Of a stretch of DNA of 30,396 bases, positions 708-28,622 are shown piece after piece. Origin of the DNA: a virus; the IMG/VR virus record IMGVR_UViG_3300018067_000022, positions 1 through 30,396 of that record; one strand, given 5' to 3'. Each line of letters opens with the position of its first letter. The stretch's first letter is position 1. The notes beneath the pieces are model-generated. The model saw only the letters and a list, made by a program, of their open reading frames with translations. It was not told the DNA's origin and ran no database searches. The position numbers and the translations under genes are program-made.

Positions 708-1172
708 ATGAGACTCCTCACGGTCACGGTCCAAGGGCAACCGGGGTTGCTCAAGGCGATCCAAGGGCTGAACGATGCCTTGGATACGACCAAGATTCTC
801 GATGAGGGAGCAGCGGTGATCTACAACCGCCTGCGCTCCCGGTTCCTCCTTCAGCAGGCCCCGGACGGTTCGACATGGCCTGTAAGCCAAGCGGCTCTGC
901 GCCGAGCCCGCACGGGACGTGGTGGCGGTACCCTGTTCGATACCGGGAGGTTGTTCCGGAGCATCCAGTTGTTCGCGGACAGTGCGACCACCCGGTCCAT
1001 CGGGACCAACGTCACGTCTCCACAAGGCTTCCCCTACGCGGAGAAGCACCAGTTTGGGATCGGCTTCCCGCAACGGCAGTTCTTGGGCTTCGCGGATGAA
1101 GACATGGACGTCATGGCGAGAGTGATCATCAACCGGATCGCACGAGGGCTCCAGCAGGGAGCGGTGCCGTGA
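708..1172 (+). CDS. Tail completion / virion morphogenesis protein (Mu gpG-like, Phage_tail_S)
   Basis: This 154-residue protein has the hallmarks of the phage virion morphogenesis family (Mu gpG, P2 gpS): an N-terminal amphipathic helix, then DGSTWP, then LFDTGRLFRSIQ, then a Y-x3-HQFG segment and PQRQFLGF before the last helix. Members cap or complete the tail before it joins the head. The length is normal for the family. The ATG at 708 follows a short 40-base gap after the connector gene with only a weak ribosome site. The stop codon overlaps the GTG start of the next gene by four bases, which points to coupled translation. Confidence 0.8.
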   Translation: MRLLTVTVQGQPGLLKAIQGLNDALDTTKILDEGAAVIYNRLRSRFLLQQAPDGSTWPVSQAALRRARTGRGGGTLFDTGRLFRSIQLFADSATTRSIGTNVTSPQGFPYAEKHQFGIGFPQRQFLGFADEDMDVMARVIINRIARGLQQGAVP

Positions 1173-1633
1173 GCAAGTTGACGGACATTCTGGATGAAGC
1201 CAGCGAAAAGCTGTTGCAACTGAACGCCCCACCGGTCAACCTCACCGGGAAGGTGGTGGTGGCCTATGACGAGAACGATCTGCTGGATGTCCTGAAGGGC
1301 GTGCGGTCGTTCCCGGCGGTGGGGATCATCTACGAAGGCATGCGTTCGATGTCCGAAGGCGGGCCGACTGCCAAGGTGGGCCTGTCCTGTGAAGTGGTGC
1401 TGGGCTTCGTGCTGGTGGAACGGGGGGATGAGATTCACCGCACGGACCAGAAGAAGGTCCGGGCCATCGAGTACTTGGATGCGATGCGGCTCCAGTTCAT
1501 GACCAAACGCAGTACGGTAACGAATCACTTCTGGCATTTTGTTGTCGAAGCCCCGGCTGCACTGCGGACGGGTGCCGTCTGCTGGGTACAACGATGGAGC
1601 CTCCCCGTTCAACTCCCGCATCAACCCCGCTAG
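1169..1633 (+). CDS. Probable tail terminator / minor tail protein
   Basis: A 154-residue protein starting at a GTG that overlaps the stop of the tail completion gene (GTGA). It contains an alternating beta/alpha pattern with VGIIYEGM near residue 50, a central strand CEVVLGFVLVE and a final FWHFVVEAP...VCWVQRW strand pair, which resembles small siphovirus tail terminator or Gp37-like proteins. Position between tail completion and the tail proteins also suits a tail terminator, the ring that stops tail tube growth. The last 40 bases are shared with the start of the downstream glycosyltransferase, in another frame. Function is an inference from fold pattern and gene order. Confidence 0.5.
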   Translation: MSKLTDILDEASEKLLQLNAPPVNLTGKVVVAYDENDLLDVLKGVRSFPAVGIIYEGMRSMSEGGPTAKVGLSCEVVLGFVLVERGDEIHRTDQKKVRAIEYLDAMRLQFMTKRSTVTNHFWHFVVEAPAALRTGAVCWVQRWSLPVQLPHQPR

Positions 1634-2313
1634 TTTCCTGCATTCTGCCGACAAAGAACCGAGCGGCGTACATCGGAGACGCCATTCGGAGCTATCAATC
1701 TCAAACGTACCCGCATACAGAACTGATCATCGTAGACAATGGCGATGACTCCACGGAAGCGGTGGTCCAGACCCACGCCAGCGTGGATGTGCGGTATGTC
1801 CGGGTACCGGGGAGAACTCTCCCCACGGGGGATATGCGGAACCTGTGTGTAAAGCACGCACAGGGGGAATTTATCTGCCATTTCGATTCCGATGACTGGT
1901 CCGCACCCGAACGAGTGACCGATCAGGTCAACCGGCTGGGGGCACACGGCGTGGTCACCGGCTACTGCTCGATGTTGTTCTATGACGAGCGGGATGGCCG
2001 CTGTTACCATTGGCAGATGTCTCATGCGCCGTACAAGTTTGCGTTGGGCACGTCGCTGTGCTATCGCCGGGAGTGGTGGCGACATCATCCGTTTCCGTCT
2101 CTCCGGATAGGGGAAGATATCCGGTTCTTTCAGCAAGCCCAGCGAGAAGCCCCCCGGCTGGTGATGACGGTGCCCGGAGGGCAGATGATGGTGGCGCGGG
2201 TCCATAACCAGCAGACCAGCCGCAAGACGTTGAATAAAACGAGCTATACACCCGTCCCGAAAACCACCCTTCCACAAGCCTACCCATGCGGTTCAATATC
2301 ATTAGCAACCTGA
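1594..2313 (+). CDS. Glycosyltransferase family 2 (GT-A fold)
   Basis: The 239-residue protein begins its domain at about residue 13 with VSCILPTKNRAAYIGDAI and ELIIVDNGDDST, the classic GT2 nucleotide-sugar binding start. D98-S-D100-D101 is the DxD-type metal/UDP-sugar motif, and E174-D175 in GEDIRFF matches the acceptor-side ED motif. GT2 enzymes move a sugar from a nucleotide donor to an acceptor; donor and acceptor cannot be read from the sequence. It has no membrane segment, so it should be cytoplasmic. The start overlaps the upstream tail gene by 40 bases and the end overlaps the next glycosyltransferase by 28 bases. It is the first gene of a four-gene modification block. Confidence 0.85.
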   Translation: MEPPRSTPASTPLVSCILPTKNRAAYIGDAIRSYQSQTYPHTELIIVDNGDDSTEAVVQTHASVDVRYVRVPGRTLPTGDMRNLCVKHAQGEFICHFDSDDWSAPERVTDQVNRLGAHGVVTGYCSMLFYDERDGRCYHWQMSHAPYKFALGTSLCYRREWWRHHPFPSLRIGEDIRFFQQAQREAPRLVMTVPGGQMMVARVHNQQTSRKTLNKTSYTPVPKTTLPQAYPCGSISLAT

Positions 2314-3155
2314 CCAATGGTGTCGGGCTGCAGCGGAACTACGAACTGTTCAAGGGGGCGCTGGAAGCCAGAGGCCATGTGGTGCAGGGCGTGCAGTTCA
2401 ACGCCAAGCCCTTCCTCATCCACCCCGCTGACGTCAATATCTTTGATGAAGTCGTCCAACCACTGGCCTTCAAAGTCGCTCCGAAACAATGGGCCATGCC
2501 CCATCCGGAGTGGTGGTTTGCGGGGTGGTACGTCCACCCATGGGATAAGGTACTGGCCAAGACCCGAGACTGCGAGCGTATCTTCCGAGCGAAGGTTGGG
2601 GATCGGTGTCAGTATCTGGGGTGGATTGCCAAAGATTTGTATCAGCCAACGGTCAAACGGGAACGACGGTTCCTGCATGTGGCCGGGAAGTCCCGGTTCA
2701 AGAACACGGCAGCGGTGGTCCACGGGTGTCAGATAGCAGGCGTGCCGTTGACGGTGATTGGGGAGTACGCTGGAGTGGTTCGCCGCCGAGCGCCGGAGTC
2801 CGAGTTGATTCGTCTGATGAATTCACACTTCTGTCAGGTGATGCCCTCCGCCTATGAAGGCTACGGCCATGTGCTTCATGAGTCCCAGAGCACGGGACAG
2901 GTACTCATTACCACGGACGCCCCACCGATGAATGAACTCCGACCGGCGTTCTGTGTACCCAGTATCGCCACGGCTCCTCATCATGAAGGCACGCTGCATA
3001 CGGTGTCGGCACTCGACGTGGCGAAGATGGTCAAGCATGTGATGGGGCTGTCCGCGAGCGAAGTCGATCAGTTGAGTTTGAATGCCCGAGCCGCATACCA
3101 ACGGGACGTACAGCAGTTTTATCATGCGCTGGATGAACTGGTAGGAGGCCGATGA
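2286..3155 (+). CDS. Glycosyltransferase, GT4-like (GT-B fold)
   Basis: This 289-residue protein looks like a compact GT-B glycosyltransferase. The C-terminal half holds RRFLHVAGKSRFKNT, the usual donor-domain opening, then VMPSAYEGYGHVLHESQ, in which E191 and E199 form the EX7E motif of GT4 enzymes. The N-terminal half (ISNLTNGVGLQRNYELF) fits the acceptor domain. It is shorter than typical 350-400 residue GT4 proteins, as phage versions often are. Start and stop both overlap the neighbouring genes (28 and 4 bases). It probably acts with the flanking glycosyltransferases and the methyltransferase on one glycan; the target is unknown. Confidence 0.75.
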   Translation: MRFNIISNLTNGVGLQRNYELFKGALEARGHVVQGVQFNAKPFLIHPADVNIFDEVVQPLAFKVAPKQWAMPHPEWWFAGWYVHPWDKVLAKTRDCERIFRAKVGDRCQYLGWIAKDLYQPTVKRERRFLHVAGKSRFKNTAAVVHGCQIAGVPLTVIGEYAGVVRRRAPESELIRLMNSHFCQVMPSAYEGYGHVLHESQSTGQVLITTDAPPMNELRPAFCVPSIATAPHHEGTLHTVSALDVAKMVKHVMGLSASEVDQLSLNARAAYQRDVQQFYHALDELVGGR

Positions 3156-3694
3156 TGCTGTTTACCAATCACGGTCAGACGTTTGCGCTGCATAATGTGT
3201 TGCACTCAATTGCCGCCCAACGGAAGATTACCGCGTATCTGGAGGTGGGCGTGTGCTATGGACACTCCTTGAAGGTGGTGCTGTCCCAGCAATTTCCTGA
3301 TCGGCTGGCGCTGTGCGATACGTGGGGTGGAGAGTACGGTGGTGAACAGTTTGGTGGGCCGACGCACATCGAGACGTTACTGAGGCACGAGAAGTATCGC
3401 CGTCCCGTGACGTTTCTGAACGGCAATTCGCACGAGCTACTGAAGACGGTGCCGGAGTTGTTCGATTTGATTCTGGTGGATGGGGATCACAGTGCGGCAG
3501 GAGCCCGTGAAGACTTGGAGGACTGCTGGTCGTTGCTGATGCCCGGTGGTCTGCTGGTGTTTGATGATCTGGCGCACCCGGCACACCCGGAGTTGCCGGA
3601 AGTGTTTTCTGCGTTTGTTGGGTCTGTCCATGCTCAGGTGGTGCATGAAGACCTGACCCCGATGGGGGTGGGAGTCCTATGCAAAACCTTGTAA
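3152..3694 (+). CDS. Class I SAM-dependent methyltransferase
   Basis: A 180-residue Rossmann-fold methyltransferase. Motif I is YLEVGVCYGHSLKVVL (about residues 29-44), and LILVDGDHSA with D110, D112 and H113 is the post-III motif of the Methyltransf_24/CmcI-like group, followed by MPGGLLVFDDL. Relatives include O-methyltransferases that act on sugars. The start ATG overlaps the previous stop (ATGA) and has GGAGG upstream. Lying between glycosyltransferase genes, it most likely methylates a sugar of the same glycan. Methylation of protein or a small molecule cannot be excluded. No target-recognition domain of a DNA methyltransferase is visible. Confidence 0.75.
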   Translation: MMLFTNHGQTFALHNVLHSIAAQRKITAYLEVGVCYGHSLKVVLSQQFPDRLALCDTWGGEYGGEQFGGPTHIETLLRHEKYRRPVTFLNGNSHELLKTVPELFDLILVDGDHSAAGAREDLEDCWSLLMPGGLLVFDDLAHPAHPELPEVFSAFVGSVHAQVVHEDLTPMGVGVLCKTL

Positions 3695-4500
3695 TCATAC
3701 CGACGTATGACCGGCCTGAGATGTTGTGGCTCTGCTTGGAGCATCTAGCCGAGTGCCCCCATCAGGAATCCATTCAAATTCGCGTCGTGGTGGATGCTCA
3801 TATCGGCCAACCACCGACGCCCACCGCAGACATTCAAGCGGTCTTGGAAAAATTCCCCCAATTGTCGTTGCAGGTTGGGTATCGGACGCCGCACCAATTT
3901 CCGGGCAATAGCTTCAACGTGTTGATGGCGTATCGGGATGCCTACCATCAAGCCGAGTCCGAGTACGTCTATCTGGTGGAAGACGATGTGATGGTGCATC
4001 CGCTGTTCTTCGCGTGGCATCAGATGCAGCACGAGACGTACCCAGACTTAGGGTGCAGCATTGCGGTGATGAAAGAGCCACAACACGGACACTATGCGTC
4101 GTTGGGCGTGTGCTTCCGTCGAGAGATGCTGAAGTTGATCCTCCCCCATTGCCGGGTGGCGTACTTTCAGAACGTGCGAGCCTACTGCAGGGCTCGATTC
4201 CCTCCCTCCAAGTCTGATTGTGAACAGGATGGGCTCTTTTGCCGACTGTTGATCGGGCATCGGATCATCTGGGCCACATCAACCCTCGCCCAGCATGTGG
4301 GGTGGTATGGGTACCACCGCAGGCGGAGTGTCCGCCCCATCGGTACGCTGGAGGACCGCTATATTCAGGTGAAACACGCCTTGGCTAATTCTGAGATTTT
4401 ACAAGGGCATGTGAAGGATTTTTGGGACATAAAACCCTTGCAATTGACTGCACCGTCAGGCACAGTAGTGGCGCAGCCGAGCAGGTTGCCACGTTCATAA
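3679..4500 (+). CDS. Glycosyltransferase, GT-A type
   Basis: The 273-residue protein starts LVIIPTYDRPEMLWLCLEHL, typical of a GT-A glycosyltransferase, and carries YVYLVEDDVMVHP with E101-D102-D103 as the metal-binding DxD-like motif. A later segment (SDCEQDGLFCRLL) may hold the acceptor-side catalytic acids. It differs clearly in sequence from the GT2 gene at the start of the block, so the two are not a recent duplication. The start overlaps the methyltransferase end by 16 bases with a GGGAG site upstream. It ends the block, 13 bases before the next structural gene. Confidence 0.75.
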   Translation: MQNLVIIPTYDRPEMLWLCLEHLAECPHQESIQIRVVVDAHIGQPPTPTADIQAVLEKFPQLSLQVGYRTPHQFPGNSFNVLMAYRDAYHQAESEYVYLVEDDVMVHPLFFAWHQMQHETYPDLGCSIAVMKEPQHGHYASLGVCFRREMLKLILPHCRVAYFQNVRAYCRARFPPSKSDCEQDGLFCRLLIGHRIIWATSTLAQHVGWYGYHRRRSVRPIGTLEDRYIQVKHALANSEILQGHVKDFWDIKPLQLTAPSGTVVAQPSRLPRS

Positions 4501-4513
4501 GGAGAACGCTGCT

Positions 4514-5665
4514 ATGAGTATGGTAAATGTTAAGAACCTTGGGTTTGGTGGATCGGGCGTCCCCGATGCCTTGCCCAAGGCGATTGCCGAACTCCAAGGC
4601 ATGAGAATGACCGTGGTGACTGGAGCGGCGGCGGGCACCGTGGTGCCGGTGTCGGGCATGGACCCGGAAGATCACATCGGAGCCGTCGTCAATCTGACGG
4701 ACCTTGTCGATGTCGCACTCAACACCATCACCATCGGGGCTCGCAACGCGCAAGGCGTGATCACCTGTCTGACCACAGCAGTGGATGGTGACACCGTGGC
4801 CGTCAACGGCAAGGTGTACAAGTTCAAGGACGTGATCGTTCACACCAGTTACAACCCTCCGCCCGGAGTGGTCCCCATCGACATCACGCCCAGCGGCACT
4901 GATTCCGAAGTGTCGGCGGAGCGGCTGGCCAAGGCCATCATGTCCGGAGACAGCACCGTGACGGCCACCGTGGGGCTGGGCGCGGGGTCACCCCCGCTCA
5001 GGAATGTGGTGACGGTGAAGGTTCGTCAGCCGGGAACCGCTGGCAACGCCTACACCCTGACCAAGACCGGCAGTGCGGTGTCGGTATCCGGGGCGACGTT
5101 CACCGGAGGCACGGCGGCAGGCAGTTCAGGCTTCACCAGCAGTGCCAGCTTGGCAGGCAAGAAGCTGCTGGTGCTCTGGTACGACAAGGCCCCCGGCGTG
5201 GCGACCAACCCGCTGCTGTTCCAAGCCATGGAACATTCGGAGCGGGACGAGGACTACGAGTTGTCGATCACCGAGTTGGAGCCGAACACGGCGGCAGTGG
5301 GTGACGAGAGCTTCACGCTGCACGTCCACGGCACCGGCTTTGGCCCGGATTCCCAGATCATTTTCAACAACCACGAAGAGCCCACCACGTTCGTCTCGCC
5401 GCAGGAAGTGACGACTGGCGTCAACATGGACGTCTGGACCAATCCCTCTGAACCGCTGCCGGTGAAGGTCCGTACGGGTGTTGGAGACGAGAGCAACGAA
5501 GAGATGTTCACGTTCTTGGCCGAAGGCGAGACTGCCTCGCCACCGGAAGCAGGACGGTCAGGACGCAAGGGTCCGGGTGGACCCGGTGGGCCGGGTGGAC
5601 CGGGGAAACCGGGTGGTCCGGGCAATCTGAACATCAAGACACCGTCACGGAAGACTGGCCGCTAA
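4514..5665 (+). CDS. Virion structural protein with TIG domain and collagen-like C-terminal tail
   Basis: This 383-residue protein follows a good ribosome site (AAGGAG, nine bases upstream). The N-terminal third is without a recognised fold; residues about 95-205 contain GDTVAVNGKVYKFKD, AERLAKAI and RQPGTAGNAYTLT, a beta module seen in phage structural proteins. Residues about 252-335 look like an IPT/TIG immunoglobulin-like domain (FTLHVHGTGFGPDSQIIFN). Residues 350-370 form a Gly-X-Y stretch rich in Gly and Pro with a few Lys/Arg, then a basic end. It sits directly before the tail tube gene, so a tail or virion surface decoration role is likely. It could alternatively be a second tail subunit. 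Confidence 0.6.
   Translation: MSMVNVKNLGFGGSGVPDALPKAIAELQGMRMTVVTGAAAGTVVPVSGMDPEDHIGAVVNLTDLVDVALNTITIGARNAQGVITCLTTAVDGDTVAVNGKVYKFKDVIVHTSYNPPPGVVPIDITPSGTDSEVSAERLAKAIMSGDSTVTATVGLGAGSPPLRNVVTVKVRQPGTAGNAYTLTKTGSAVSVSGATFTGGTAAGSSGFTSSASLAGKKLLVLWYDKAPGVATNPLLFQAMEHSERDEDYELSITELEPNTAAVGDESFTLHVHGTGFGPDSQIIFNNHEEPTTFVSPQEVTTGVNMDVWTNPSEPLPVKVRTGVGDESNEEMFTFLAEGETASPPEAGRSGRKGPGGPGGPGGPGKPGGPGNLNIKTPSRKTGR
5574..5625 (+). repeat. Collagen-like Gly-X-Y coding repeat
   Basis: A run of near-identical nine-base units (variants of GGTGGACCC and GGTCCGGGT) encodes several consecutive Gly-(Gly/Lys)-Pro triplets near the end of the TIG-domain structural protein. Such tracts form trimeric collagen-like stalks in many phage fibres. 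The short length (about six triplets) makes a stable triple helix uncertain. Confidence 0.65.
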
Positions 5666-5692: not shown

Positions 5693-6526
5693 ATGAGTAC
5701 TTTTGATGCGGCCAACTGGTACTTCAGTGGCCAAGGTGTCATCATGGTCGGTCGGCGTGACCCCATCACGGGGAACCCGGTTGGCCTGCGTCCCGTGGGC
5801 AACTGCCCTGAAATGCGCCTCACCGTCGCAACGACCGTGGTCAACCACAAGGGCTCACAAGATGGCCAGCGAGCCACCGATGCCCGCCTGCAGACTGAAG
5901 TCAATGTGACGGCCTCTATCACCGTCGAGAACTGGAACGCCAAGAACCTCTCGGAAGCCACCCGTGGTGACGACCTGTTGATCCCGGCAGGCACCTACAC
6001 GGAAAACCTGATGGGCGTCCCCGGTCGGGTCACGTCGCTTCGTTACATCGACGTGAACGGCGTGACGGTCAACGGCGGATCGCCCGCCGCCGCGATGACC
6101 GAGTACACGGACGGCACCGAGCCGTGGGACTACAAGCTGAACGCGGCAGCAGGTTCCATCATGCTGAACGACGGCATCCTGATGGACTTCGACGGCTACA
6201 GCCCGTCATCTCCGGCCAACCCCGAAGGTGATCCGCTGACGGTCAGCTACAGCTACGGCGAACAGTACCTCGTCTCGGCACTCACGCGCCCGATCACCGA
6301 CAACTGGCTCAGGTTCGAAGGGCTCAACACCATCGAGTCGAACAGCCCGGTCATCGTGGACGTGTTCCGCTTCAGCAACGATCCATTGAAGGAACTGGCC
6401 CTGCTGTCCGACACCTTCGGACAGTTCGTGATCGAGGGCTCGGTGCTCAAGGACGACACGCGCCTCTACGGCAGCAATTACTTCAGCATCAAGAAGCTGA
6501 AGTTCGCAGCGGACAACGCCTTCTAA
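5693..6526 (+). CDS. Major tail tube protein
   Basis: A 277-residue soluble beta-rich protein with a GGGAGAAG ribosome site. The region MRLTVATTVVNHKGSQDGQRATDARLQTEVNVTASITVENWNAKN (given here as the span of residues 43 to about 87) has the alternating strand pattern of siphovirus tail tube subunits, and the end (FVIEGSVLKDDT) also fits. Tube subunits stack as hexamers around the tape measure. The gene lies directly before a strong terminator and the chaperone pair, exactly the place of the tube gene in lambda-like tails; the terminator would let this abundant protein be made in excess. Confidence 0.7.
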   Translation: MSTFDAANWYFSGQGVIMVGRRDPITGNPVGLRPVGNCPEMRLTVATTVVNHKGSQDGQRATDARLQTEVNVTASITVENWNAKNLSEATRGDDLLIPAGTYTENLMGVPGRVTSLRYIDVNGVTVNGGSPAAAMTEYTDGTEPWDYKLNAAAGSIMLNDGILMDFDGYSPSSPANPEGDPLTVSYSYGEQYLVSALTRPITDNWLRFEGLNTIESNSPVIVDVFRFSNDPLKELALLSDTFGQFVIEGSVLKDDTRLYGSNYFSIKKLKFAADNAF

Positions 6527-6541: not shown

Positions 6542-6585
6542 CGGGTGGATGGTAACTGGGACCAGCCATCCACCCGTTCTTATTC
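6542..6585 (+). terminator. Rho-independent terminator after the tail tube gene
   Basis: An 11-bp perfect inverted repeat (CGGGTGGATGG at 6542-6552, CCATCCACCCG at 6566-6576) with a 13-base loop is followed by the T-rich stretch TTCTTATT. It begins 16 bases after the tail tube stop codon. It is expected to end or reduce transcription so that the tail tube is made in far greater amounts than the chaperones and tape measure. Confidence 0.75.
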
Positions 6586-6610
6586 ATTCGTGATGGCCAA
6601 CAAGGAGTGT

Positions 6611-7075
6611 ATGGCTAAGACCGTTGTCAAGATTGCCGACCTCGCCCAACTCAGCCGACCTGTCGATATCTCCGACGATGAGCAAATCATGGTGCGGGCG
6701 CTGAACCTGCGCGAGATGGTGACGCTCTTCGTGGAGTCGCGGGACGTGTTTATTCCGCTCTACGCGGCATCGTTGGAACCGGGTACCAACCCTGCGGAAG
6801 CCTTGGCTCCCTTTCTTTTGTCAGCCCCGGAGGTGGTCGCCAAGATTATTGCGATGGCGACGGACGAGCCGGAGGCAGCGAACATCATCCAACAGCGGAT
6901 GCCTGCCACGGTGCAATTGATTGCGCTGTCGGAGATTTGGAAGGCGTCCGTACCCGATCAAAAAAAAGCGAGCCAATTGTTATCCGAGGTGACCAGTCTG
7001 TTGCAAAAGCTCTCAGAAAGAGGGGAAAACATGATCCAGCAGAAGTCTGGTCTGACGAGCTTGCAACCGCAATAG
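6611..7075 (+). CDS. Tail assembly chaperone, unshifted form (lambda gpG-like)
   Basis: The zero-frame chaperone, 154 residues from the ATG at 6611. AAGGAG stands at 6602-6607, only three bases from this ATG, which is tight; the in-frame ATG at 6593 is the alternative but has no ribosome site and lies directly behind the terminator. The protein is helical after residue 20 (LNLREMVTLFVESRDVF; LLSAPEVVAKIIAMAT; TVQLIALSEIWKAS), as in siphovirus tail assembly chaperones that coat the tape measure before tube polymerisation. It carries the slippery A-run near residue 117. Position between tube and tape measure is canonical. Confidence 0.75.
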   Translation: MAKTVVKIADLAQLSRPVDISDDEQIMVRALNLREMVTLFVESRDVFIPLYAASLEPGTNPAEALAPFLLSAPEVVAKIIAMATDEPEAANIIQQRMPATVQLIALSEIWKASVPDQKKASQLLSEVTSLLQKLSERGENMIQQKSGLTSLQPQ

Positions 7076-7272
7076 AATTACTCGTCGCACACGGGCACCG
7101 ACTTCATGATGTGTGGGGCTACACCATGCGGATGGTGCAAATCTATGCGGAACTGATTGCGCTTCGTCAGCGGCAGGAACTCCATGCGTTGACGGTGGCG
7201 GTTCGCCATACACAGGGATCGGACGCTAAGGTGTTTCGGGAGTTTCTGAAGAGTTTGTCAGGAGACGAGTAG
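6611..7272 (+). CDS. Tail assembly chaperone, -1 frameshift fusion (lambda gpGT-like)
   Basis: A second open frame, -1 relative to the gpG-like gene, is protein-like downstream of the A-run (EVWSDELATAIELLVAHGH, VWGYTMRMVQIYAELIALRQRQ) and ends at 7272, directly before the tape measure ATG. It has no good start of its own. Slipping by -1 at 6960-6967 joins K119 of the first frame to S-E-P-I-V of the second, giving about 220 residues. This is the G/GT arrangement known from lambda and most long-tailed phages, where a fixed low ratio of the fusion is needed to assemble the tail. Confidence 0.75.
6960..6967 (+). promoter_or_regulatory. -1 programmed ribosomal frameshift site (A8 tract)
   Basis: Eight consecutive A residues read as CAA AAA AAA GCG in the chaperone frame. 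The heptamer A-AAA-AAA lets both lysine tRNAs re-pair perfectly after a -1 slip, and the next codon in the new frame is AGC. The shifted frame stays open for a further 101 residues. No clear downstream pseudoknot was worked out by eye. Confidence 0.75.
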
Positions 7273-10200
7273 ATGCCCCCATCTTCCGCCGCGATGGAAC
7301 TGAAGGTACTGATTAGTGTGTTGCAGAGTGGTCAAGCTCTGCAAACGCTGCTGAATCAGACCAACCAGTTAACGACGGCGCTGACGAAACTCCAACAGCA
7401 AGCGGGAAAGATCCCGCCGGGTGGCCCGCCCACCCCACCGGTTCCCCCCAAGAAGGGTATTGATGACACGACAGATGCCCTGAAGAATCTGGATGCGATG
7501 GCCAACAAGGTCATCTCCACCCTCAAATTCTTGGCGGGGGGATTTCTTGCCCTACAGAGCGTCCGATTCCTGAAAGACTTGGCCGATACGGCGGCTCGTG
7601 CCGAAGTGCTGTCTACCGTGCTTCGTGTCGTGGGGAATAACGCGGGTTATTCCACCGAAAAACTCAATCAAGCAGATCGCCAGATTCAAGCACTGGGGAT
7701 CACGGCCTCAGCGTCTCGTCAATCATTGACCCAGTTCATCCAAGCCGAATTGGATTTGGCGGATGCGCCTCTGTTGGCCCGAGCCGCACAGGATGCAGCG
7801 GTCATTCTTGGTACGAACTCGTCGGATGCCTTCGAACGATTGGTGACAGCGGTCCAGACCACGAACACCTTGATGCTCCGCCACATGGGCATCATCGTGT
7901 CAGCCGATACGGCCTACCAGAAATACGCCCAGTCCATCGGTAAATCAGTCACGCAATTAACGTCGGCACAGCGGGCACAAGCCTTTCTCAATGCGACCTT
8001 GGTGCAGACTCAGCGCATTCAGGGATCGTACACGGCGGCGATGGGAGACGTGGGCAAGCAGATCACGTCTCTTGAGCGGTTGACGACCGATTTGAAAACG
8101 TCGTTGGGCAACAACCTGCTCCCGGCCTATCTGGCGGTCGTGGAGGAATTGACGGTCTTCCTCCAGCATCTGGGGCTAGCTGCAGACGAGATGTATGGGC
8201 AAGGAGAAGGTGCGAAGCGGCTGGGAGAGGATGTCAAAGCTCTGGCCCGCAACATCCGCATTTTGGCGGAATTTCTGGTGGAACATCGGAAAGAAATTCT
8301 GTACGTCATTGTGTTGTGGGCCGGGGTGTCTAAAATCATCCTGCCGCTGATCAATTTGTTCTTTAAGTTGAAAGATGCTATCGCTGGCGTCGGCGCAGGC
8401 GGCGTTCTCGTCCGAATCGTTCAGGGTATTGGTGCTCTTTCCACGGGCATTATTACGTTGGGCCTGTCCATCATTCTTGCGGAAGTGATGTTTGACCGGT
8501 TCAATGCAGCGATTGGATCGGTTGTCGGGGCCATCTGGACCCTGTTGGAAGCTCTTGATGCGTTGATTTATGCGATTATTCACGGGTTGATAGCCGCCGC
8601 CCGGTCTGTCTATGCCTTTTTCGCCCACCCGTTTACCCCTTCGGAATGGTTGAAACCGTGGAAAGAGTGGGCGGATGGGGTGAGAGCCCAGATTGCGGAT
8701 ATTGGACGGGTGTGGGATTTAACGAAGGCTCGATTTGGTCAAGCCTTTGGAACGAATGCCGCGCAAGCTACTCCTGAACAAGCGGCCCAGCAGTCACGAG
8801 CACAACGGTTTGAAGAAGAAGCCGGTCTGCTCGTGGATATCATGGAGAAAACGCGGGAATACAATGCGCTCAAGAAGACCGGGTCAGCAGAGGATTTGGT
8901 CAGGACGGAAAAAGAACTCAAGGATTTGAAGGAAAAAGCGTCCAAGCTCACCGAAGCCCGGAAGGCTGAGCAGGACGCTCTGAAATTCAGTCCGGGGATG
9001 AAAGAGGCGGAAGAAAAACGGCTGCAACTCAATATTGCTCAACGCGAAGAAGACGCCATCATCAAACGGCTGGATAAGGTCCGTGAGAAATCCAAGTACT
9101 GGTACTTCGAAGGCGAAGTCAGCAAGCCCTTCATGGAACAGATAGGGCAATTCAACGATCTGTTAGAGATTTTTAATCGAGCAGGCAATCAAGCCAAAGT
9201 CACGACCGATGAGTTGGGACGGAATTTGGTCGAATCGGCACAAGTTGCCAAGACCAAGGCGGATTTGGCGGGGCTCCGCAAGAGTCTGAATGAGTTGGTC
9301 AATTCTCCGGAATTCAAGAAACTGCCGCTGGCGGATCAGCGTCAGCTTCGTGAACGGGGCCGTCAAGCCGTCGCGGGCGCAGAAATCAATGTCCGACAGG
9401 AGCGGTTACGAGAGAACGCCGAAGTCGAGAAAGAACGGGAGCAGCATTTCCGCCAGTTGGAAAAACGCCGAGCCGATCATCTTGAGCACGAAAAGAACCT
9501 CATGGCGTCCGCCTTTGAACTCCAAGAGGCGATGGATGAGCAGTCCTACACTCGACGCGGGATGGAACTTGACAAGTATTTCGATAAACGGCTGGCTCGG
9601 TTAATCGAACAGACCGATCAAGAACTGCTGATTGCGAAGAACAATCTCGCGGCGTTGGAACGTGAACGTGAGAAAAAGATCCCGCGCACGCCGCAGGAAA
9701 TCGAAGAACTCGACACCAAGATTACCGAAGCGCAAAACGCACTGGCTGAGTTGCAGGGCGAGTCGGGCACCATTGCGACTCGGATCGCTAAGCTGGGGTT
9801 CGAACGAGAAGGTGCCCGTGAAGACAAGCTGAAGAAATCCAAGCAAACCTTGTTGGATATTGCGGCGATTTACGGGGATGAAGAAGCGGCCCTCGCAGCG
9901 GTCAACAACAAGTACGACGAGCAGTATCAGAAAGCCAATACCAACGAGGAACGGGAAGCTATCCGGGCGGAACAACGACGGGAAGTGTTTGAGACGGAAC
10001 TGAAGTACCGGGAAAAACTCCTCCAACTTTCGTTGAAAACGCAGCAAGAAACGGGACGTCGGTTAGAGCGGGAGCAAGGCCAGATTGATGCGGACAAGGC
10101 ACATATCGCTGCATTAGAAAAGGCTGGGCAACTTTCGAACTATGACGCGATGCGGGCGCGAAATGAACTGTTAGTGCGTCAAATCGCCCACGACCAAGAA

Positions 10201-18723: not shown

Positions 18724-19796
18724 ATGGCCCTCTTGTTCATGGATTCATTTGACCATTACGTCACAGCGGATGTGGCAAAAAAATGGTCGTCTCGATCAGC
18801 CGACACGGGGAACACTACCGCTATCAATGCGACCGGTGGTCGGCATAGTTCCGCGTCGTTTCGGTGCGTGAAAGTCAGTCTGAATCGGTCGATGTGGACG
18901 AAGCTCCTTGTTCCGACAGGAAACATCTGTGTGATGGGTGTTGCCTACAAGATTGCCAGTGCGACGACTCAGCCGATACAGATGATGACCATTTTCAGCA
19001 GTGGTGGCGGACAAGTCACATTAAGAGTGAACGCTGATCTAACGGTGTCCATGATGCGGGGTGGAACCGTACTGGGCACATCTGGCATTTCGCTGGCCGT
19101 TGCAACCTTCACGTATGTCGAGATGAAAGTTACGATCAGTCCCACAGTGGGGACTGTGGATGTCCGGTTCAATGGCGTACTGGTGCCCGGACTGAGTGGG
19201 TTGACAGGTCTGAACACGGCAAACGTAGGCGGCTCGACGTGGTCAGGGATCGCGCTGAATGAGTATGACGATTCTGCGCTGGGCATCGTGGGCACGACGC
19301 TGGATTACGATGATTTCTACGTGCTCGATGGCAGTGGTGCGGCTCCGTGGAACACGTTTTTGGGAGACGTGCGTGTCGATGCTCGGTTCCCAACTGGAGC
19401 CAGTGCGAACGGGGCTCCAAACACGGGATGGACGCCCTCGGCTGGGGCGAATTGGCAGAATGTCGATGACACCCCCGGCCCCAATGATGACACCGATTAC
19501 AACGAGACGGTGACGAGTGGGGTTCTTGACACCTTCGTAGTGCAGGACATTCCGGTCACGGGTGCGTTGGTGTATGGCGTGCAGCACAACATGGCCCTGA
19601 AAAAATGGATGCGGGGTTGTGTTTGGTCGCCCCCGTTGTGCGGCATAGCTCGGTGAACTATGTGGGGACAGATGTGAGTCCTTCCACGGCGTATGGGTAT
19701 GCCACCCAGATTATGCAGGTCAACCCCGGTACCTCGGCCCAGTGGACGGAAGCCGGATTCAATGCGGCGGAATTTGGCTACAAGCGAACCACCTAA
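18724..19796 (+). pseudogene. Tail fibre adhesin, split by a -1 frame change at an A6 tract
   Basis: Frame one starts at 18724 (AGGAGA upstream) with a concanavalin/laminin-G-like domain (LLFMDSFDHYVTADVAKKW; YVEMKVTISPTVGTVDVRFNG) and then a stalk domain (GPNDDTDYNETVTSG; ALVYGVQHNMALKK). It would stop at 19656 after an improbable 15-residue end. The -1 frame from the A6 tract (19600-19605) continues the domain with DAGLCLVAPVVRHSS, a Y-G-Y-A-T-Q strand and WTEAGFNAAEFGYK, and ends at 19796, exactly adjacent to the next ATG. The shifted product would be about 357 residues. It may be a true mutation, a homopolymer sequencing error, a phase-variable tract or programmed slippage. Confidence 0.7.
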
Positions 19797-21887
19797 ATGG
19801 CTATCACTCTCGCCGCCTCAGTTACCTTTGGTGGAGTAGACGGCGGAATCTCCGCAGCGATAGATACGACTGGGGCCAAGCTGCTCGTCATTTCGGTTGG
19901 GTATTTTGCCACAATCGGCACGGTTAGCGATTCAAAGGGTAATAGTTGGACGCCGCTGACGGAACGTACCACGGGGAGCACTGCGAAGCATCGCTTCTAC
20001 TACGTGCTCAACCCTGTGGTTGGGACGGGGCACACGTTCAATGTCTTCGGTATCAACACGTTCCTCGGTTACGTCGTTCACGCCTATGCTAACCCTGCTG
20101 GGGCACTGATCTTTGAGTCGCAGAACGGCGCGGCGGCGGCGTCAGGTACTAGTCGTAGCACCGGCAGCGTGACACCAACGACCGACGGCTCGCTCATCGT
20201 GAGTGGGTTGTCGCTCGGTGATGCGAGCAACAGTCCTACGGTGGACTCCGGGTTGACCTCCACGTTGCGAGCGGGCGTAGCAGGCGTTTCGCTTGGTTGC
20301 ACGCTCGCCTACAAGGTCCAGTCCCCGGCGGCAGCGATCAATCCGACGTGGTCGTGGACCGCGAGTGCCGAGCACGCCGCATCGGTAGCGGTGTTCAAGT
20401 CCGCCCCTGCATTTACTCCTGTAGCCTCTGCCGTTGCAACGGGGGCCACGACGTCAGCCATTGACACTACAGGTGCGTCTCTGTTGGTGGTCAATGTATC
20501 GTGGTGGGAACCGGGTGGTGCGGTGACGGTGAGTGATTCCAAGGGGAATACGTGGCAACCTGCGAATCTTTATGGCTATGCAGGAGCGGCGAGACACCGA
20601 TTTTGGTATTGCCTAAATGCCGTGGTGGGAACGGGACACACCTTCACCGTTACTGGGCAATCGTCGTTTGTGGTGCAGGCGTTTTCCATAAGTGGGGGAG
20701 CCGCGATCCAAGGCTCTTCTCAAAGCGGAAATACGGGTGTGTTTGTTAGCAGTCTGGCCAGTGGAGTGGTGACGCACACGGCGGGGGATCTGATTGTCAC
20801 CGGATTTGGTGCGGATGGAGCCGGAGGAGTAGATACGGTTCCCACTGGTTTTACGGCTGTGGGTCCGTCGTTCATCGCCGCAGCCAACATGGAGTGTACC
20901 GGTGGATATTTGGTGGCTGGTACGACGGGCTCCACAAATCCCACATGGGCACTATCGGGATCACACACCTATAACGTCGTATCCTCGCTCGTCTTTTCCA
21001 TTATTCCTGCAGGACTCACCAAGATCCAGACGACTGGCGTCGTAGGTGCGGCTGGAAGCCCTAGCGTTGGTGTGGGGTTTGGGTTTACCCCCTTGGTGGG
21101 CAGTGGCATCGTGGTCATGGCCCATGGGTGGAATTCCGGCCCGATGTCCGCGAGTGATAATTACGGGAACACCTACCAGACAGCCGTTGTTCGCAACACC
21201 AGTAACCACTACTCCGCAATTTTGTACTGTTCGAAAGTGGTCAATAGTGGACCATCCTTCGTGGTCACAGTGGTTGGCGGGGGTGCGACGTATTTCGCGG
21301 TGCAGGCCCATGAAGTCGTAGGCGTGGGGTATGGGTTAGTTGCTGTTGCTACAGCGGGAGCGACGGGCAGTTCCACGACGCCCGCTACGGGAGCGACAGC
21401 GGCCAGTCCCGTTGCCAATGTGTTCGCGGTGGCCGTTATGGGCGTCCAGCCCACCCAGTCCACGATTACGGTCGAAACCGTGAGCCCCGTGTGGGCGCAA
21501 GATGCGGAAGTCCTCAGTAATTCTGGCCAATCTGCTACAGAATTTGATTCGCGGATGTTGACGGGAGTGTCTGGAGCGACTCTCAGCAGTAGCTGGACCA
21601 ATGGGACGACCGGGGCATGGACGGCCATCATGGCAGGCTTTGCCTCCATCAATGACTTGCCACCGGCATCGGGACGAGTCACCCACGATCCGATTGAGGT
21701 GTTGAGTTTACCGACGCCTGCGGCTCGGGTGACCCATGATGCCGTAGAAGTCTTGTTCATCCCGTTGGCCACCGCTCGGGTCACGCAGACAGCGATTGAA
21801 GTCGTCACGCCCTATGTGCCAGAAACCACGACCGGCGGGGTGGGCATCTGGATGGGTGATGGCGCAGGCAACATCTGGATTGAGTAA
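19797..21887 (+). CDS. Large tail adhesin with three tandem beta domains and short C-terminal repeats
   Basis: A 696-residue secreted-like surface protein rich in G, A, S, T, V with few charged residues and no signal peptide. Three units of about 200 residues align: IDTTGAKLLVISV / IDTTGASLLVVNV / VGSGIVVMAHG, and DSKGN, DSKGN and DNYGN at residues 45, 247 and 454, each followed by a conserved Y/W-C/V-LN and VVGTGHTF-type strand. Residues about 627-674 hold three short repeats (RVTHDPIEVL, RVTHDAVEVL, RVTQTAIEVV). The start codon directly abuts the previous stop. It is most likely a fibre or spike subunit; each domain may be a jelly-roll. Confidence 0.6.
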   Translation: MAITLAASVTFGGVDGGISAAIDTTGAKLLVISVGYFATIGTVSDSKGNSWTPLTERTTGSTAKHRFYYVLNPVVGTGHTFNVFGINTFLGYVVHAYANPAGALIFESQNGAAAASGTSRSTGSVTPTTDGSLIVSGLSLGDASNSPTVDSGLTSTLRAGVAGVSLGCTLAYKVQSPAAAINPTWSWTASAEHAASVAVFKSAPAFTPVASAVATGATTSAIDTTGASLLVVNVSWWEPGGAVTVSDSKGNTWQPANLYGYAGAARHRFWYCLNAVVGTGHTFTVTGQSSFVVQAFSISGGAAIQGSSQSGNTGVFVSSLASGVVTHTAGDLIVTGFGADGAGGVDTVPTGFTAVGPSFIAAANMECTGGYLVAGTTGSTNPTWALSGSHTYNVVSSLVFSIIPAGLTKIQTTGVVGAAGSPSVGVGFGFTPLVGSGIVVMAHGWNSGPMSASDNYGNTYQTAVVRNTSNHYSAILYCSKVVNSGPSFVVTVVGGGATYFAVQAHEVVGVGYGLVAVATAGATGSSTTPATGATAASPVANVFAVAVMGVQPTQSTITVETVSPVWAQDAEVLSNSGQSATEFDSRMLTGVSGATLSSSWTNGTTGAWTAIMAGFASINDLPPASGRVTHDPIEVLSLPTPAARVTHDAVEVLFIPLATARVTQTAIEVVTPYVPETTTGGVGIWMGDGAGNIWIE

Positions 21888-21888
21888 G

Positions 21889-21902
21889 TGCAATTAATTG
21901 CA
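21889..21902. promoter_or_regulatory. 14-bp perfect palindrome between adhesin and next gene
   Basis: TGCAATTAATTGCA is a perfect palindrome in the 28-base gap before the gene at 21916. It could bind a dimeric regulator or form a small hairpin just upstream of the AGGAG site. No T-run follows, so it is not a standard terminator. Confidence 0.35.
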
Positions 21903-21915
21903 ATAGGAGTGCGAC

Positions 21916-22329
21916 ATGCCACAGGTACAGCCCATTGTGGTGGAGGGCATTTACGTGCCTCCCATGAACTGTGTGACGTTGACCCGGTATTTCTATTCGT
22001 GTGAGGAACGATCCGATGGGACGTTGTACCGGCAGTTACTGCGGGCAGAACGGCGAGTAGATCGGGCCATTGTCCGTCCCCTTCAGCCGTTTCAACGGGA
22101 AGCTCTGGTCTGTCTCGTCTCGGATCTGGTGGCCGGATTAGCGGTGTCTCCGAGCGTGACTTTTGAAAAGAGCTTTCTGGTCAAGGCCCTGAACAAGGGC
22201 ATGTTCCAGATCGCGGCGGCAGAGTTTCACGTCTTCTGCTACAGGGATGGCAAGGTGCAGACCCGGCTCTGGGAAAAGCGGCGAGCGGAGCAATATCTGT
22301 TCTCCAGAGGCCACTTGCTCTTCGACTGA
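21916..22329 (+). CDS. Unknown protein between adhesins and replication genes
   Basis: A 137-residue, mixed alpha/beta, basic protein with AGGAG six bases upstream of the ATG. It contains LTRYFYSCEERSDGTLYRQLLR, a central helix QREALVCLVSDLVAGL and a C-terminal EFHVFCYRDGKVQTRLWEKRR. I recognise no family, catalytic motif, signal or membrane helix, so it is not obviously a holin or endolysin. It is the last gene before a 64-base gap that seems to separate late from replication genes. Confidence 0.55.
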   Translation: MPQVQPIVVEGIYVPPMNCVTLTRYFYSCEERSDGTLYRQLLRAERRVDRAIVRPLQPFQREALVCLVSDLVAGLAVSPSVTFEKSFLVKALNKGMFQIAAAEFHVFCYRDGKVQTRLWEKRRAEQYLFSRGHLLFD

Positions 22330-22343
22330 GTACATGCTAAACT
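22315..22343 (+). promoter_or_regulatory. Candidate promoter for the replication region
   Basis: TTGCTC (22315-22320) is separated by 17 bases from TAAACT (22338-22343), which is preceded by TG to give an extended -10. It would start transcription about 50 bases before the AAA+ gene, in one of the few gaps in the window. The -35 matches only half of the consensus, so this is tentative. Confidence 0.35.
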
Positions 22344-22393
22344 AGGGCCACGGTTAATTCAGAAGCCTCCAATGGAGTGGGATCGGTCGTTCT

Positions 22394-23581
22394 ATGCTTG
22401 ATTTTACTACTGCGTTCAAAGCGCATCTGCCGTTCATAGGTGTACACACGGACGATCCTGTAAACGTCCGTACGATTTTGCAACACCTGAGCGGCAAAGC
22501 GGTTCAGCCATTACCGACAGCCAAGCAGGCTCCGGTCGGAGATGCGTATCTCTGGTGGACCGAAGACCCGTTGCAAGTGAACACGGACATGTACCGCAAG
22601 CTCTGTGCGGCAACCGCCAGTTGCGTGGTCGTGAACGCTGACAAGCCCAACCTGCTGGTCTATGACACCGGCATCCTGCAGACGCCCCCGCAGTTCTACC
22701 GGGACTACCTGAAGGATTTCGTCACCCCGGAGCAGATCGAGTCCATCACCCAGCAGTTGAAGGGCCTGAGCCTCAAGAGCGCACAGGAAGTCGTCCAGTT
22801 GACCATGGCACGGGTGCAATCCATTGCACCACATGAGGTTCGCAAGACCCGGCAGATGATGGGCGGTGAAACCCCCGGCCTGATGGTGCTGGAGACGGAT
22901 TACGATTTCTACGAATGGCCCCATGCCCTGAAGGAATGGCTCACGCTCAACGATCAATACTTTCTGGACCTGAACACGCCCCCACAGTTGGTGCCCCGTG
23001 GTCTGCTCCTTGGCGGCGAGCCCGGAGTAGGGAAGACCATGGCGGCTAAGGTGCTGGCCAAGCACTGGGACGTGCCGCTGTTCCGGCTGGACGTGAGCAC
23101 GAGCCTCAACCGCTATCTGGGGGAGTCCGAAAGCCGGATTGCGAAGAATCTGGCGGTCATCGAGCAGAACGCCCCGTGCGTCTGGCTGATGGACGAAGTC
23201 GAGAAGCTGTTCGTGTCCAATGGAGACGAAGGAACGACGCAGCGGATTCTCAGTCAGGTGCTCTGGTGGTTGCAAGCGCACACCGCTCGTGTTTTAACAA
23301 TAATGACCACGAACAATTTGGAAACGATTCCAAGAGAATTGTATCGGGCTGAGCGTTTGGACAAGGTGCTCCACTTAGAAAAGTTACCGATGTCGGCAGC
23401 GAAGGCGTTTGCTGCCAAGGTTTATGAATCAGTATTGGGCCACCCCATTCCGCAAAAGAGGGCCAAACTACTCAGGGAATTGTTGGAAAAAAGCGATAAA
23501 GGCACTTACGCTCATGCAGAAGTGCGAGTGCTGGTGTATGAGACGGTAAAAATCAACGGCTGGTTGAATTCCAATGCTTGA
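22394..23581 (+). CDS. AAA+ ATPase with an unrecognised N-terminal domain
   Basis: A 395-residue protein. The AAA+ core has Walker A GGEPGVGKT (K214, T215), LDVSTSLNRYLGESESRI as sensor/pore-type segment, Walker B WLMDEVEK (D267, E268), and MTTNN as sensor 1, followed by an RAERLDK arginine-finger-like segment. The order resembles FtsH/Vps4/RuBisCO-activase type ATPases more than helicase loaders. The first 200 residues are not recognised and contain FYRDYLKDF and an acidic-helical region. Phage AAA+ proteins of this kind are often seen in replication blocks, with unclear roles. Codon use and G+C change at about 23285, so the last about 100 residues look different from the rest. Confidence 0.75.
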   Translation: MLDFTTAFKAHLPFIGVHTDDPVNVRTILQHLSGKAVQPLPTAKQAPVGDAYLWWTEDPLQVNTDMYRKLCAATASCVVVNADKPNLLVYDTGILQTPPQFYRDYLKDFVTPEQIESITQQLKGLSLKSAQEVVQLTMARVQSIAPHEVRKTRQMMGGETPGLMVLETDYDFYEWPHALKEWLTLNDQYFLDLNTPPQLVPRGLLLGGEPGVGKTMAAKVLAKHWDVPLFRLDVSTSLNRYLGESESRIAKNLAVIEQNAPCVWLMDEVEKLFVSNGDEGTTQRILSQVLWWLQAHTARVLTIMTTNNLETIPRELYRAERLDKVLHLEKLPMSAAKAFAAKVYESVLGHPIPQKRAKLLRELLEKSDKGTYAHAEVRVLVYETVKINGWLNSNA

Positions 23582-27332: not shown

Positions 27333-28622
27333 GTGGCATATGCCTTGGGGACGAGGGCCATTAAGCGTCTGTGTCAGGAACAAAACCCGGTGGGGTGGCA
27401 GAAGGCCAAGCTGTCCCCCGCCTTGTTCAAGCCGTCCGAGCAATCCGTCTACGAGTGGGTCACCGATCATCTGAAGCTCCACCATGCGTTGCCGCATGTG
27501 GAGACGTTGCAAGCGGCCTTTCCCGATGTGGAGCCGCTGGAGATTCCCGAGCCTTCCAGTTACTACGTCCTGCAGCTAGAGCAGCGATACTGTTACGAGC
27601 GGGTTAATAAAGCCAATCTGGAGTCGCAGTCGATCCTCAAGCAGGACCAGACCGCCTCCGAAGAGGCCCTGAACGTCCTCCGGCACGCCATCCGCGATAT
27701 CACCGAGCAGCGGTACCGGGTCCGCATCCTCGATGTCGCCTTGGATGCGCCCACGTTGGTGCTGACGGCCTACCATCAGGTGTCGTCGGCGGAGTATGTG
27801 GCGACCTTTGGGTGGCCGTATCTGGACCACCAGAGCGGTGGGGTGATGCCCGGAGATGTCATCTCCTTCGTCGGTCGCCCAGCGGTGGGCAAGACATGGT
27901 TGACCCTCTGGACCGCCCTGCACAACTGGACGGTGCGGAAGCTCAACGTGCTCTACGTCTCCATGGAGATGATGACGCTGCCGATTGCCCAGCGTATCTC
28001 GGCCCTGTATACCCATCAGAACATCAGTCAGTTGAAGGTGGCCGGGTACAGCAACCAGACCTTCGCCAAGTTCTATGCGGGCCTGAAAACCATGACGCTG
28101 GAGTCGGCCAAGATGTACGTGGTCGATGGCAATCTGGCGGCGAGCGTCGAAGACCTGTTCGCCTTGGCCGACATGCTGGAGTGTCGGGTGATGTTCATCG
28201 ACGGCGCGTATCTCCTGCGCCATCGCAACGTCAAACTCGATAGATTCACCCGAGCCGCCGAAAACGTGGAACTGATCAAGCGGAACTGCACCGATCTGGA
28301 AATCATGGCGTTCTGCTCATGGCAGTTCAACCGCGAAGCCAGTAAGAAACAGAAGAAGGGCAAAGGGGAGCAGGGGGATCTGGAAGATATCGGGTACACG
28401 GATGCCATCGGCCAGATCAGTAGCATTGCCCTGTCGCTGTATCAGGAAGACAGCGTCGAAACCATGAAGCAGCGGAAGATCCAAGTGATGAAGGGCCGGA
28501 ACGGCGAAGTGGGCCAGTTCTCCATCGCATGGGACTTCACTCAAATGAGCTTCGCCCAGACCGATCCGCCCATCGGTCCAGCGGTGAAGGCGGATGACGC
28601 CAAGGAATTACAGTGGGTATAG
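27333..28622 (+). CDS. Replicative DNA helicase, DnaB-like
   Basis: A 429-residue RecA-fold helicase. It starts at GTG 27333, five bases after AAGGAGG. An N-terminal helical domain (about 1-140) is followed by the ATPase core: GGVMPGDVISFVGRPAVGKT is Walker A (K187, T188), VLYVSMEM is the H1a-like motif, VMFIDGAYLL is Walker B (D290), and the late DIGYTDAIGQISSIALSLYQ and KGRNGEVG fit motifs H3/H4. It unwinds DNA at the fork as a hexamer. It is somewhat shorter than bacterial DnaB (about 470), as phage versions often are. No intein is present. Confidence 0.88.
   Translation: MAYALGTRAIKRLCQEQNPVGWQKAKLSPALFKPSEQSVYEWVTDHLKLHHALPHVETLQAAFPDVEPLEIPEPSSYYVLQLEQRYCYERVNKANLESQSILKQDQTASEEALNVLRHAIRDITEQRYRVRILDVALDAPTLVLTAYHQVSSAEYVATFGWPYLDHQSGGVMPGDVISFVGRPAVGKTWLTLWTALHNWTVRKLNVLYVSMEMMTLPIAQRISALYTHQNISQLKVAGYSNQTFAKFYAGLKTMTLESAKMYVVDGNLAASVEDLFALADMLECRVMFIDGAYLLRHRNVKLDRFTRAAENVELIKRNCTDLEIMAFCSWQFNREASKKQKKGKGEQGDLEDIGYTDAIGQISSIALSLYQEDSVETMKQRKIQVMKGRNGEVGQFSIAWDFTQMSFAQTDPPIGPAVKADDAKELQWV

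Follow-up and report, generated by a model that had tools for sequence, protein, structure and literature searches.

A stretch of viral DNA of 30,396 nucleotides (positions 1 to 30,396 of IMG/VR record IMGVR_UViG_3300018067_000022), referred to here as the window, carries four genes for three glycosyltransferases (GTs) and a methyltransferase that probably form a transferable cassette whose enzymes build a methylated oligosaccharide on a protein of the virion. The enzyme families are intact, the genes are inserted among tail genes, relatives of them recur in the virion modules of unrelated phages, and the methylation slot is exchanged between copies. The genes of the region are as follows.

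708..1172, + strand: tail completion / Neck1 protein, left flank (PF05069, E 2.9e-12; phrog_26, E 1.6e-22)
1169..1633, + strand: probable tail terminator, so named for lying between the Neck1 and tail tube genes; borders the insertion on its left and overlaps the GT2 start
1594..2313, + strand: GT2-family glycosyltransferase, 239 aa (PF00535, E 1.1e-22; D98-S-D-D, G173-E-D)
2286..3155, + strand: GT4-like (GT-B type) glycosyltransferase, 289 aa (PF00534, E 8.3e-5, below cut-off; E191/E199)
3152..3694, + strand: class I methyltransferase, Methyltransf_24, 180 aa (PF13578, E 1.7e-17; D110-G-D-H)
3679..4500, + strand: GT-A fold glycosyltransferase with E101-D-D, 273 aa (model and conserved EDD)
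4514..5665, + strand: p4514, candidate Ig-type virion protein and candidate glycan acceptor (by alignment, core kept between tail genes in cassette-less relatives)
5264..5512, + strand: IPT/TIG Ig-like domain of p4514, aa 251-333 (EBF3 structural match; NF058597)
5693..6526, + strand: major tail tube protein, second candidate acceptor (phrog_807, E 5.1e-57; NF052337 tail_tube, above cut-off)
from 6545: pre-tape-measure protein, right of the tail tube gene

The four enzyme genes are intact and overlap in the order GT2, GT4-type, Methyltransf_24 and GT-A, spanning 1594-4500. The first also overlaps the preceding gene (1169-1633), and the block ends 14 nt ahead of the ORF at 4514. The preliminary description of this DNA had proposed such a block of overlapping enzyme genes within the tail genes, and its coordinates were borne out, with matching Pfam families. 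It had also placed the block between a tail terminator candidate and the tail tube. The placement holds, but "tail terminator" for the gene at 1169 is a positional name, and the gene directly 3' of the block is that of the Ig-type p4514, with the tail tube gene coming only after it. The gene at 1169..1633 is kept in cassette-less relatives and matched no named family in PHROGs. Scans of the block region for promoters and terminators gave nothing above chance.

The catalytic motifs attributed to the enzymes were present at the expected positions (DSDD at 98, DGDH at 110 and EDD at 101). E191 and E199 of the GT4 enzyme were invariant across 12 homologues, one of them from a Streptomyces phage, as were E101 and D103 of the GT-A enzyme across 20 homologues. 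The Pfam match of the GT4 gene to Glycos_transf_1 (E 8e-5) was below the curated cut-off, and that of the GT-A gene to Glyco_tranf_2_3 (E 0.0012) was likewise below cut-off. Structure prediction, which had been suggested for the GTs, gave a GT-A fold for the GT-A enzyme (pLDDT 88.5), and the PDB neighbours of the model were POMGnT1 (Z 19.2), GnT-I (Z 17.9) and bacterial GT2 enzymes (Z ~17.8). POMGnT1 and GnT-I are eukaryotic glycoprotein GlcNAc transferases of family GT13 and, as the nearest solved structures, have the E-D-D region in common with the model, but bacterial GT2-type enzymes are almost equally close, within ~1.4 Z. The profile match of the GT-A enzyme to GnT-I reached only E 0.0017, and Pfam GNT-I was matched by just three of 20 GT-A family members (best E 0.021).

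Judged from its sequence, the methyltransferase is a probable sugar O-methyltransferase. TylF was also matched by its relatives, weakly by the enzyme of L011 and strongly by gp108 of mycobacteriophage Che8. In a defence-system library the only match was a weak, partial one of the methyltransferase to a mads_2 model. No transmembrane segment was detected in the four block proteins, in which the highest 19-residue hydropathy mean was 1.4.

A search for the block at this position in related phages, as had been recommended, found about nine further distinct phage lineages that carry it at this site in the same gene order. Since order and place are conserved in these lineages, the block is not a chance arrangement. 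Across the same-site copies the core GTs are 52-72% identical, and the methyltransferase is either 40-75% identical or replaced; the GT core is fixed, and the methyltransferase slot is swapped for other methyltransferases, a PLOD-type GT or a nucleotidyltransferase fusion. That the block is an insertion follows from its absence in phages that have the tail genes, namely sister contigs such as L107, whose tail tube is 62% identical, and the cultured Stenotrophomonas phages of Delepquintavirus (capsid 70% identical). The Delepquintavirus phages DLP_5, DLP_3 and Summit are the nearest cultured relatives by major capsid protein (~70% identity), and their virion gene order is identical to that of the window. 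In DLP_5 and Summit two small genes are found where the window has the cassette and p4514, and no glycosyltransferase is annotated there. The DNA of the block had no nucleotide similarity to cultured phages.

At least five unrelated lineages, Streptomyces phages included, also have related GT4/GT-A cassettes (~29-47% identical) within their virion modules. The cassette adjoins the genes for the capsid, an IPT/TIG protein and a head-tail adaptor in L025/L026, separates portal/protease from the tail terminator in L043 and L044, adjoins the portal gene in L051, and stands ahead of the tape measure gene in L056 and Streptomyces phage JustBecause. In JustBecause and six relatives the GT4 and GT-A homologues (31% and 29%) are gp47 and gp48, predicted GTs encoded adjacently and in the same order as in the window, in the tail region upstream of the tape measure; unlike in the window, no GT2 or methyltransferase gene lies between them. 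The hosts of cassette-bearing phages range from Streptomyces to, probably, Gram-negatives. GT4 relatives are present in bacterial genomes too, but as these are 26-34% identical and no GT-A match was found in their fetched flanks, they indicate neither host nor origin. Because several unrelated viruses have the cassette among the genes that build the particle, the virion itself is most likely what it decorates.

A comparable set of enzymes is encoded by mycobacteriophage Che8, whose capsid protein is reportedly glycosylated (PMC11256854, citing Freeman et al. 2023); virion glycosylation of Che8 and its relatives is attributed to the same study in both PMC11256854 and PMC12619734. In Che8, gp108 is a fusion of GT2 and Methyltransf_24/TylF, gp109 is GT2-like and gp110 is a GT25 enzyme, so that Che8 and the window alike encode three GTs and one Methyltransf_24 domain together. 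PF13578 is matched by the window enzyme with E 1.7e-17 and by gp108 with E 3.7e-11. An HNH gene (gp112) lies nearby in Che8, as HNH genes do beside some copies of the window cassette. The likeness has limits: the GT genes of Che8 are found towards the end of its genome and not in the tail module, whereas those of the window lie within that module; the GT4 and GT-A profiles did not match the Che8 enzymes, and the GT2 profile gave a weak match to gp108 (17 bits; E 4e-7 with three sequences searched). Virion glycosylation has been reported for Che8, whereas for the window system the virion product is predicted. Overall, the window cassette would be a form of the known phage-encoded virion glycosylation, probably outside the actinophages.

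The proposal made for the block was a pathway directed at the virion, with three or more transfer steps plus methylation, and this gains support from the recurrence in unrelated virion modules, the absence in sister phages and the Che8-like kit. In such a pathway the soluble enzymes would be made together with the late tail proteins, if the genes are co-expressed as we suppose, and would act on virion subunits in the cytoplasm soon after their synthesis. One GT of the three would start the glycan on a virion protein, the other two would lengthen it using nucleotide sugars of the host, and O-methylation of a sugar would fall to the Methyltransf_24 enzyme. We infer that the methyl group is a cap and that the glycan is displayed on particles, and the acceptor, step order, sugars and linkage are likewise proposals.

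The first candidates for the acceptor are the IPT/TIG-domain protein p4514 and the tail tube protein. p4514 consists of a core of ~225 aa, an IPT/TIG domain and a collagen-like tail. The full-length model was poor (overall pLDDT 58), with only the C-terminal domain readable (local pLDDT mostly 70-79); this part has the IPT/TIG Ig-like fold, matching the EBF3 IPT/TIG domain with Z 12.6 over 87 residues and NF058597 above cut-off. No Pfam TIG match was found in p4514. No clear acceptor motif was evident in the C-terminal sequences of the capsid and tail tube proteins. Three possible marks of an acceptor were discarded: the IPT/TIG extension is not obligatory, being missing from the alignment in cassette-bearing L003, L012 and L023; the C-terminal Ser/Thr tail of the capsid protein (TGITGSR) occurs also in cassette-less L107; and the C-terminal extension of the tail tube protein contains no Ser/Thr.

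A broader and tentative idea, possible but short of an even chance in our estimation, is that the cassette is a "virion glycan island" that moves horizontally and is widespread among phages whose families and hosts are unrelated. Its fixed core of GT4 and GT-A, in many cases joined by GT2, would glycosylate an Ig-like (IPT/TIG) protein of the virion, and a tailoring slot open to exchange (methyltransferases, PLOD-type GT, nucleotidyltransferase fusion) would vary the outer sugar between strains, in the manner of bacterial serotypes. Our literature search found demonstrated virion glycosylation of tailed phages only for mycobacteriophages, and the cassette described here belongs to the tail module of phages that, judged by capsid protein, have their nearest cultured kin among phages of a Gram-negative bacterium. 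If decoration of the virion is indeed its role, glycan-bearing phage particles would be commoner than thought and the outer chemistry of the particles would be exchanged between strains.

An unlikely alternative, although the one that survives best, is that the soluble GTs and methyltransferase, working late in infection from the cytoplasm, alter an LPS, capsule or teichoic intermediate, which would keep progeny from readsorbing to debris or shut out superinfecting phages. The best scores of the GT2 enzyme were to the bacterial surface-polysaccharide enzymes TuaG, EpsE and WcaA, all far below cut-offs, phage GTs are filed under host takeover in PHROGs, and bacteria, as noted above, have related GT4 genes. 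However, the repeated placement of the cassette among virion genes, in unrelated phages of such different hosts, speaks against this reading, and nucleotide-sugar synthesis genes (PF00483, PF01370) were not found in the window family. GtrABC-type serotype conversion involves membrane-embedded flippase and GT partners, which are not found among the four block proteins, and their lack of a transmembrane segment counts against surface conversion of this type and against the host-surface reading.

That the GTs instead add sugars to modified bases in the phage DNA, and that the methyltransferase acts on DNA or tailors the sugar, appears highly improbable. Hypermodification of DNA by phage-encoded GTs is known (Pyle et al. 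2024, cited in PMC12619734), and the methyltransferase matches PHROGs named "DNA methyltransferase" (phrog_2675, E 2e-9), but it belongs to Methyltransf_24 and its sequence has no [DN]PP[YFW] motif, and the cassette genes are grouped with tail rather than replication genes. Homologues of thymidylate synthase and TET/JBP were not found, which counts against DNA-base modification: a thymidylate-synthase-type enzyme (PF00303) was found in none of 14 possibly incomplete records, several of them >110 kb, with nine of 14 control genomes positive, and TET/JBP (PF12851) was absent from the 14 records, a weak result as the control search was likewise empty.

Least credible of all is a homing-endonuclease-associated insertion without virion function, maintained by transfer alone: HNH-type genes within the cassette or next to it were recognized by sequence in L003, L009 and L012 (with Pfam support only in L009), and the cassette has a lower third-position GC (0.67-0.68) than the small virion genes adjoining it (0.76-0.82), but most copies have no endonuclease genes, the GT2-GT4-GTA core is maintained across lineages with conserved catalytic residues, and the third-position GC of the tape measure gene is equally low (0.63).

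Open reading frame calls on the window, an IMG/VR virus record of 30,396 bases, gave four overlapping genes at 1594-4500 (hereafter the cassette), exactly as the preliminary description had them, within a series of tail genes:

left of the cassette: tail-completion/Neck1 protein (PF05069, phrog_26)
left of the cassette, after the Neck1 gene: probable tail terminator
1594-2313: GT2 glycosyltransferase (GT)
2286-3155: GT4-like enzyme
3152-3694: methyltransferase
3679-4500: GT-A enzyme
4514..5665 (+), right of the cassette: p4514
5693..6526 (+), right of the cassette: tail tube (phrog_807, NF052337)
right of the tail tube: pre-tape-measure protein, then tape measure

In Pfam searches the GT2 gene matched PF00535 (E 1.1e-22) and the methyltransferase gene matched Methyltransf_24 (PF13578, E 1.7e-17); the GT4-like gene gave a weak Glycos_transf_1 match and the GT-A gene was weakly detected. 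The GT-A assignment is based on a confident structural model (pLDDT 88.5) and its closest solved structures, which were POMGnT1 (Z 19.2), GnT-I (Z 17.9) and bacterial GT2-type enzymes (Z about 17.8). A profile match to GnT-I was also obtained (E 0.0017), and a GT13-like character is possible for the modeled enzyme. The sequence motifs first described for these proteins were located at their expected residues, and catalytic residues were conserved across homologues.

The preliminary description had suggested a search for the same block at the same position in related phages, and it was found in about nine other distinct lineages (several contigs were copies of one virus). Their gene order was tail completion, probable terminator, GT2, GT4, methyltransferase(s), GT-A, p4514 and tail tube. 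Four further contigs, L107 (tail tube 62% identical), L110, L114 and L118, had the same tail genes contiguous and without the cassette. At this site, Stenotrophomonas phages DLP_5 and Summit, the closest cultured phages when judged by capsid protein (about 70% identity), instead carry two small genes. These gene orders indicate that the cassette is an insertion among tail genes. Its third-position GC is 0.67-0.68, versus 0.76-0.82 in the surrounding small virion genes (that of the tape measure gene is lower still), and HNH-endonuclease-like genes lie inside or beside the cassette in L003 (4331-4918), L009 (3446-3889) and L012 (5270-5839), with Pfam confirming that of L009 only. Both features fit transfer.

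A profile scan of viral contigs revealed the GT-A/GT4 cassette, at about 29-47% identity, also in phages with different structural genes. In L025 and L026 it is flanked on one side by a major capsid candidate and a small protein that has an IPT/TIG domain (PF01833, E 1.1e-8) and a linker rich in Ser/Thr, and on the other by a head-tail adaptor. In L043 it lies between portal and protease genes and a tail terminator, in L044 between portal and tail terminator, in L051 beside a portal-type gene, and in L056 and Streptomyces phage JustBecause upstream of the tape measure. Less clear cases are L045 and L046, whose virion matches are weak or distant, and L065, which has a large sugar-gene cluster including an epimerase. 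This repeated association with virion genes, listed here as cases with no enrichment claimed, is our main argument that the cassette would act on the virion. The L025 contig (record G007) also has, upstream of the cassette, a long open frame (19754-22432, minus strand; about 1012 aa) in which several GT2 matches were obtained, and the L026 record has a similar frame.

The main rival, a less likely one, is that the enzymes modify the host surface. Against this, the cassette proteins are without transmembrane segments, no nucleotide-sugar genes were found in the window family, and the virion location is common to different phages. That DNA is the target is unlikely: thymidylate-synthase-type enzymes were absent from the 14 records searched (some of which may be incomplete), the Methyltransf_24 protein has no DNA-methyltransferase motif, and TET/JBP was not found, though the control search was also silent. 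That the block is a mere passenger is likewise unlikely given its conserved catalytic cores.

If the virion is the target, p4514 and the tail tube are, by position, the first candidate acceptors; a diagnostic acceptor motif was looked for and not found. The p4514 core (~225 aa) also occurs in cassette-less relatives, and in the window an Ig-like domain of the IPT/TIG type comes next (NF058597, E 1.3e-14; Z 12.6 against the TIG domain of EBF3), and then a collagen-like GGPGGPGGPGKPGGPG tail. The IPT/TIG part is missing in some cassette-bearing phages. By eye, AAGGAG before p4514 is a strong ribosome-binding site, and none is evident for GT2 and GT4, which would fit catalytic amounts of the enzymes and structural amounts of p4514. 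A scan for promoter and terminator signals gave none above chance in the cassette region. In L132, L153 and L166-L173 the p4514-family gene is not adjacent to the tail tube: it directly follows the major capsid gene and precedes the neck gene. From this location, the family may represent a head or shared decoration protein. The identity of the sugars, the order of the steps and the biological benefit are matters of inference only.

The methyltransferase position varies. A single Methyltransf_24, of one type, is present in the window, L003, L006, L007 and L009; in L010, L011, L012, L025 and L026 a different Methyltransf_24 is paired with a Methyltransf_11 enzyme, and in L023 that Methyltransf_11 enzyme accompanies a third type. 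In L043 the position is taken by a PLOD-type GT domain (9287-9964; PF25342, E 1.4e-16), the domain type of collagen lysyl-hydroxylase glycosyltransferases. The L044 gene at 7668-8966 combines a methyltransferase with a MobA-like nucleotidyltransferase domain (E 1.1e-5, narrowly missing the cut-off) in one fusion, and this domain could serve in sugar activation. In the GT tree, sequences of the window type group as one derived clade (support at the separating node was weak, 0.54); on that basis the ancestral form is probably the longer one with two methyltransferases, and the window has a simplified version. The tail-gene tree was poorly resolved.

The capsid protein of mycobacteriophage Che8 is reported to be glycosylated (PMC11256854), as are capsid and tail tube C-termini in mycobacteriophages (PMC12619734). 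Che8 gp108 is a GT2 fused to Methyltransf_24/TylF, gp109 a second GT2-like enzyme and gp110 a GT25 enzyme; reading from annotation, these would be the enzymes responsible. The two kits are alike in having three GTs and one Methyltransf_24 each. However, their genome positions differ, and profile searches detected no homology of the window GT4 and GT-A to the Che8 enzymes. By analogy, the cassette may work like the Che8 system, of which it is only partly a member.

Capsid similarity, the sole basis used for the host, points to a Gram-negative bacterium; many Streptomyces phages also appear in the capsid search, with lower identity. Elsewhere in the window, a CBM_5_12 carbohydrate-binding module (PF02839, E 1.3e-7) is present in the product of the gene at 2-667, which precedes the Neck1 gene and has the position of a head-tail adaptor, and an AAA-family ATPase gene (22394-23581; PF00004, E 9.9e-27) is found upstream of one for a DnaB-type helicase (27333-28622). 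ORFs 6545-7075 and 6937-7272 overlap in frames offset by -1, with a run of eight A (A8) near 6960, and resemble the frameshift pair of a tail assembly chaperone. In Summit, a frameshift product is annotated at the matching place.
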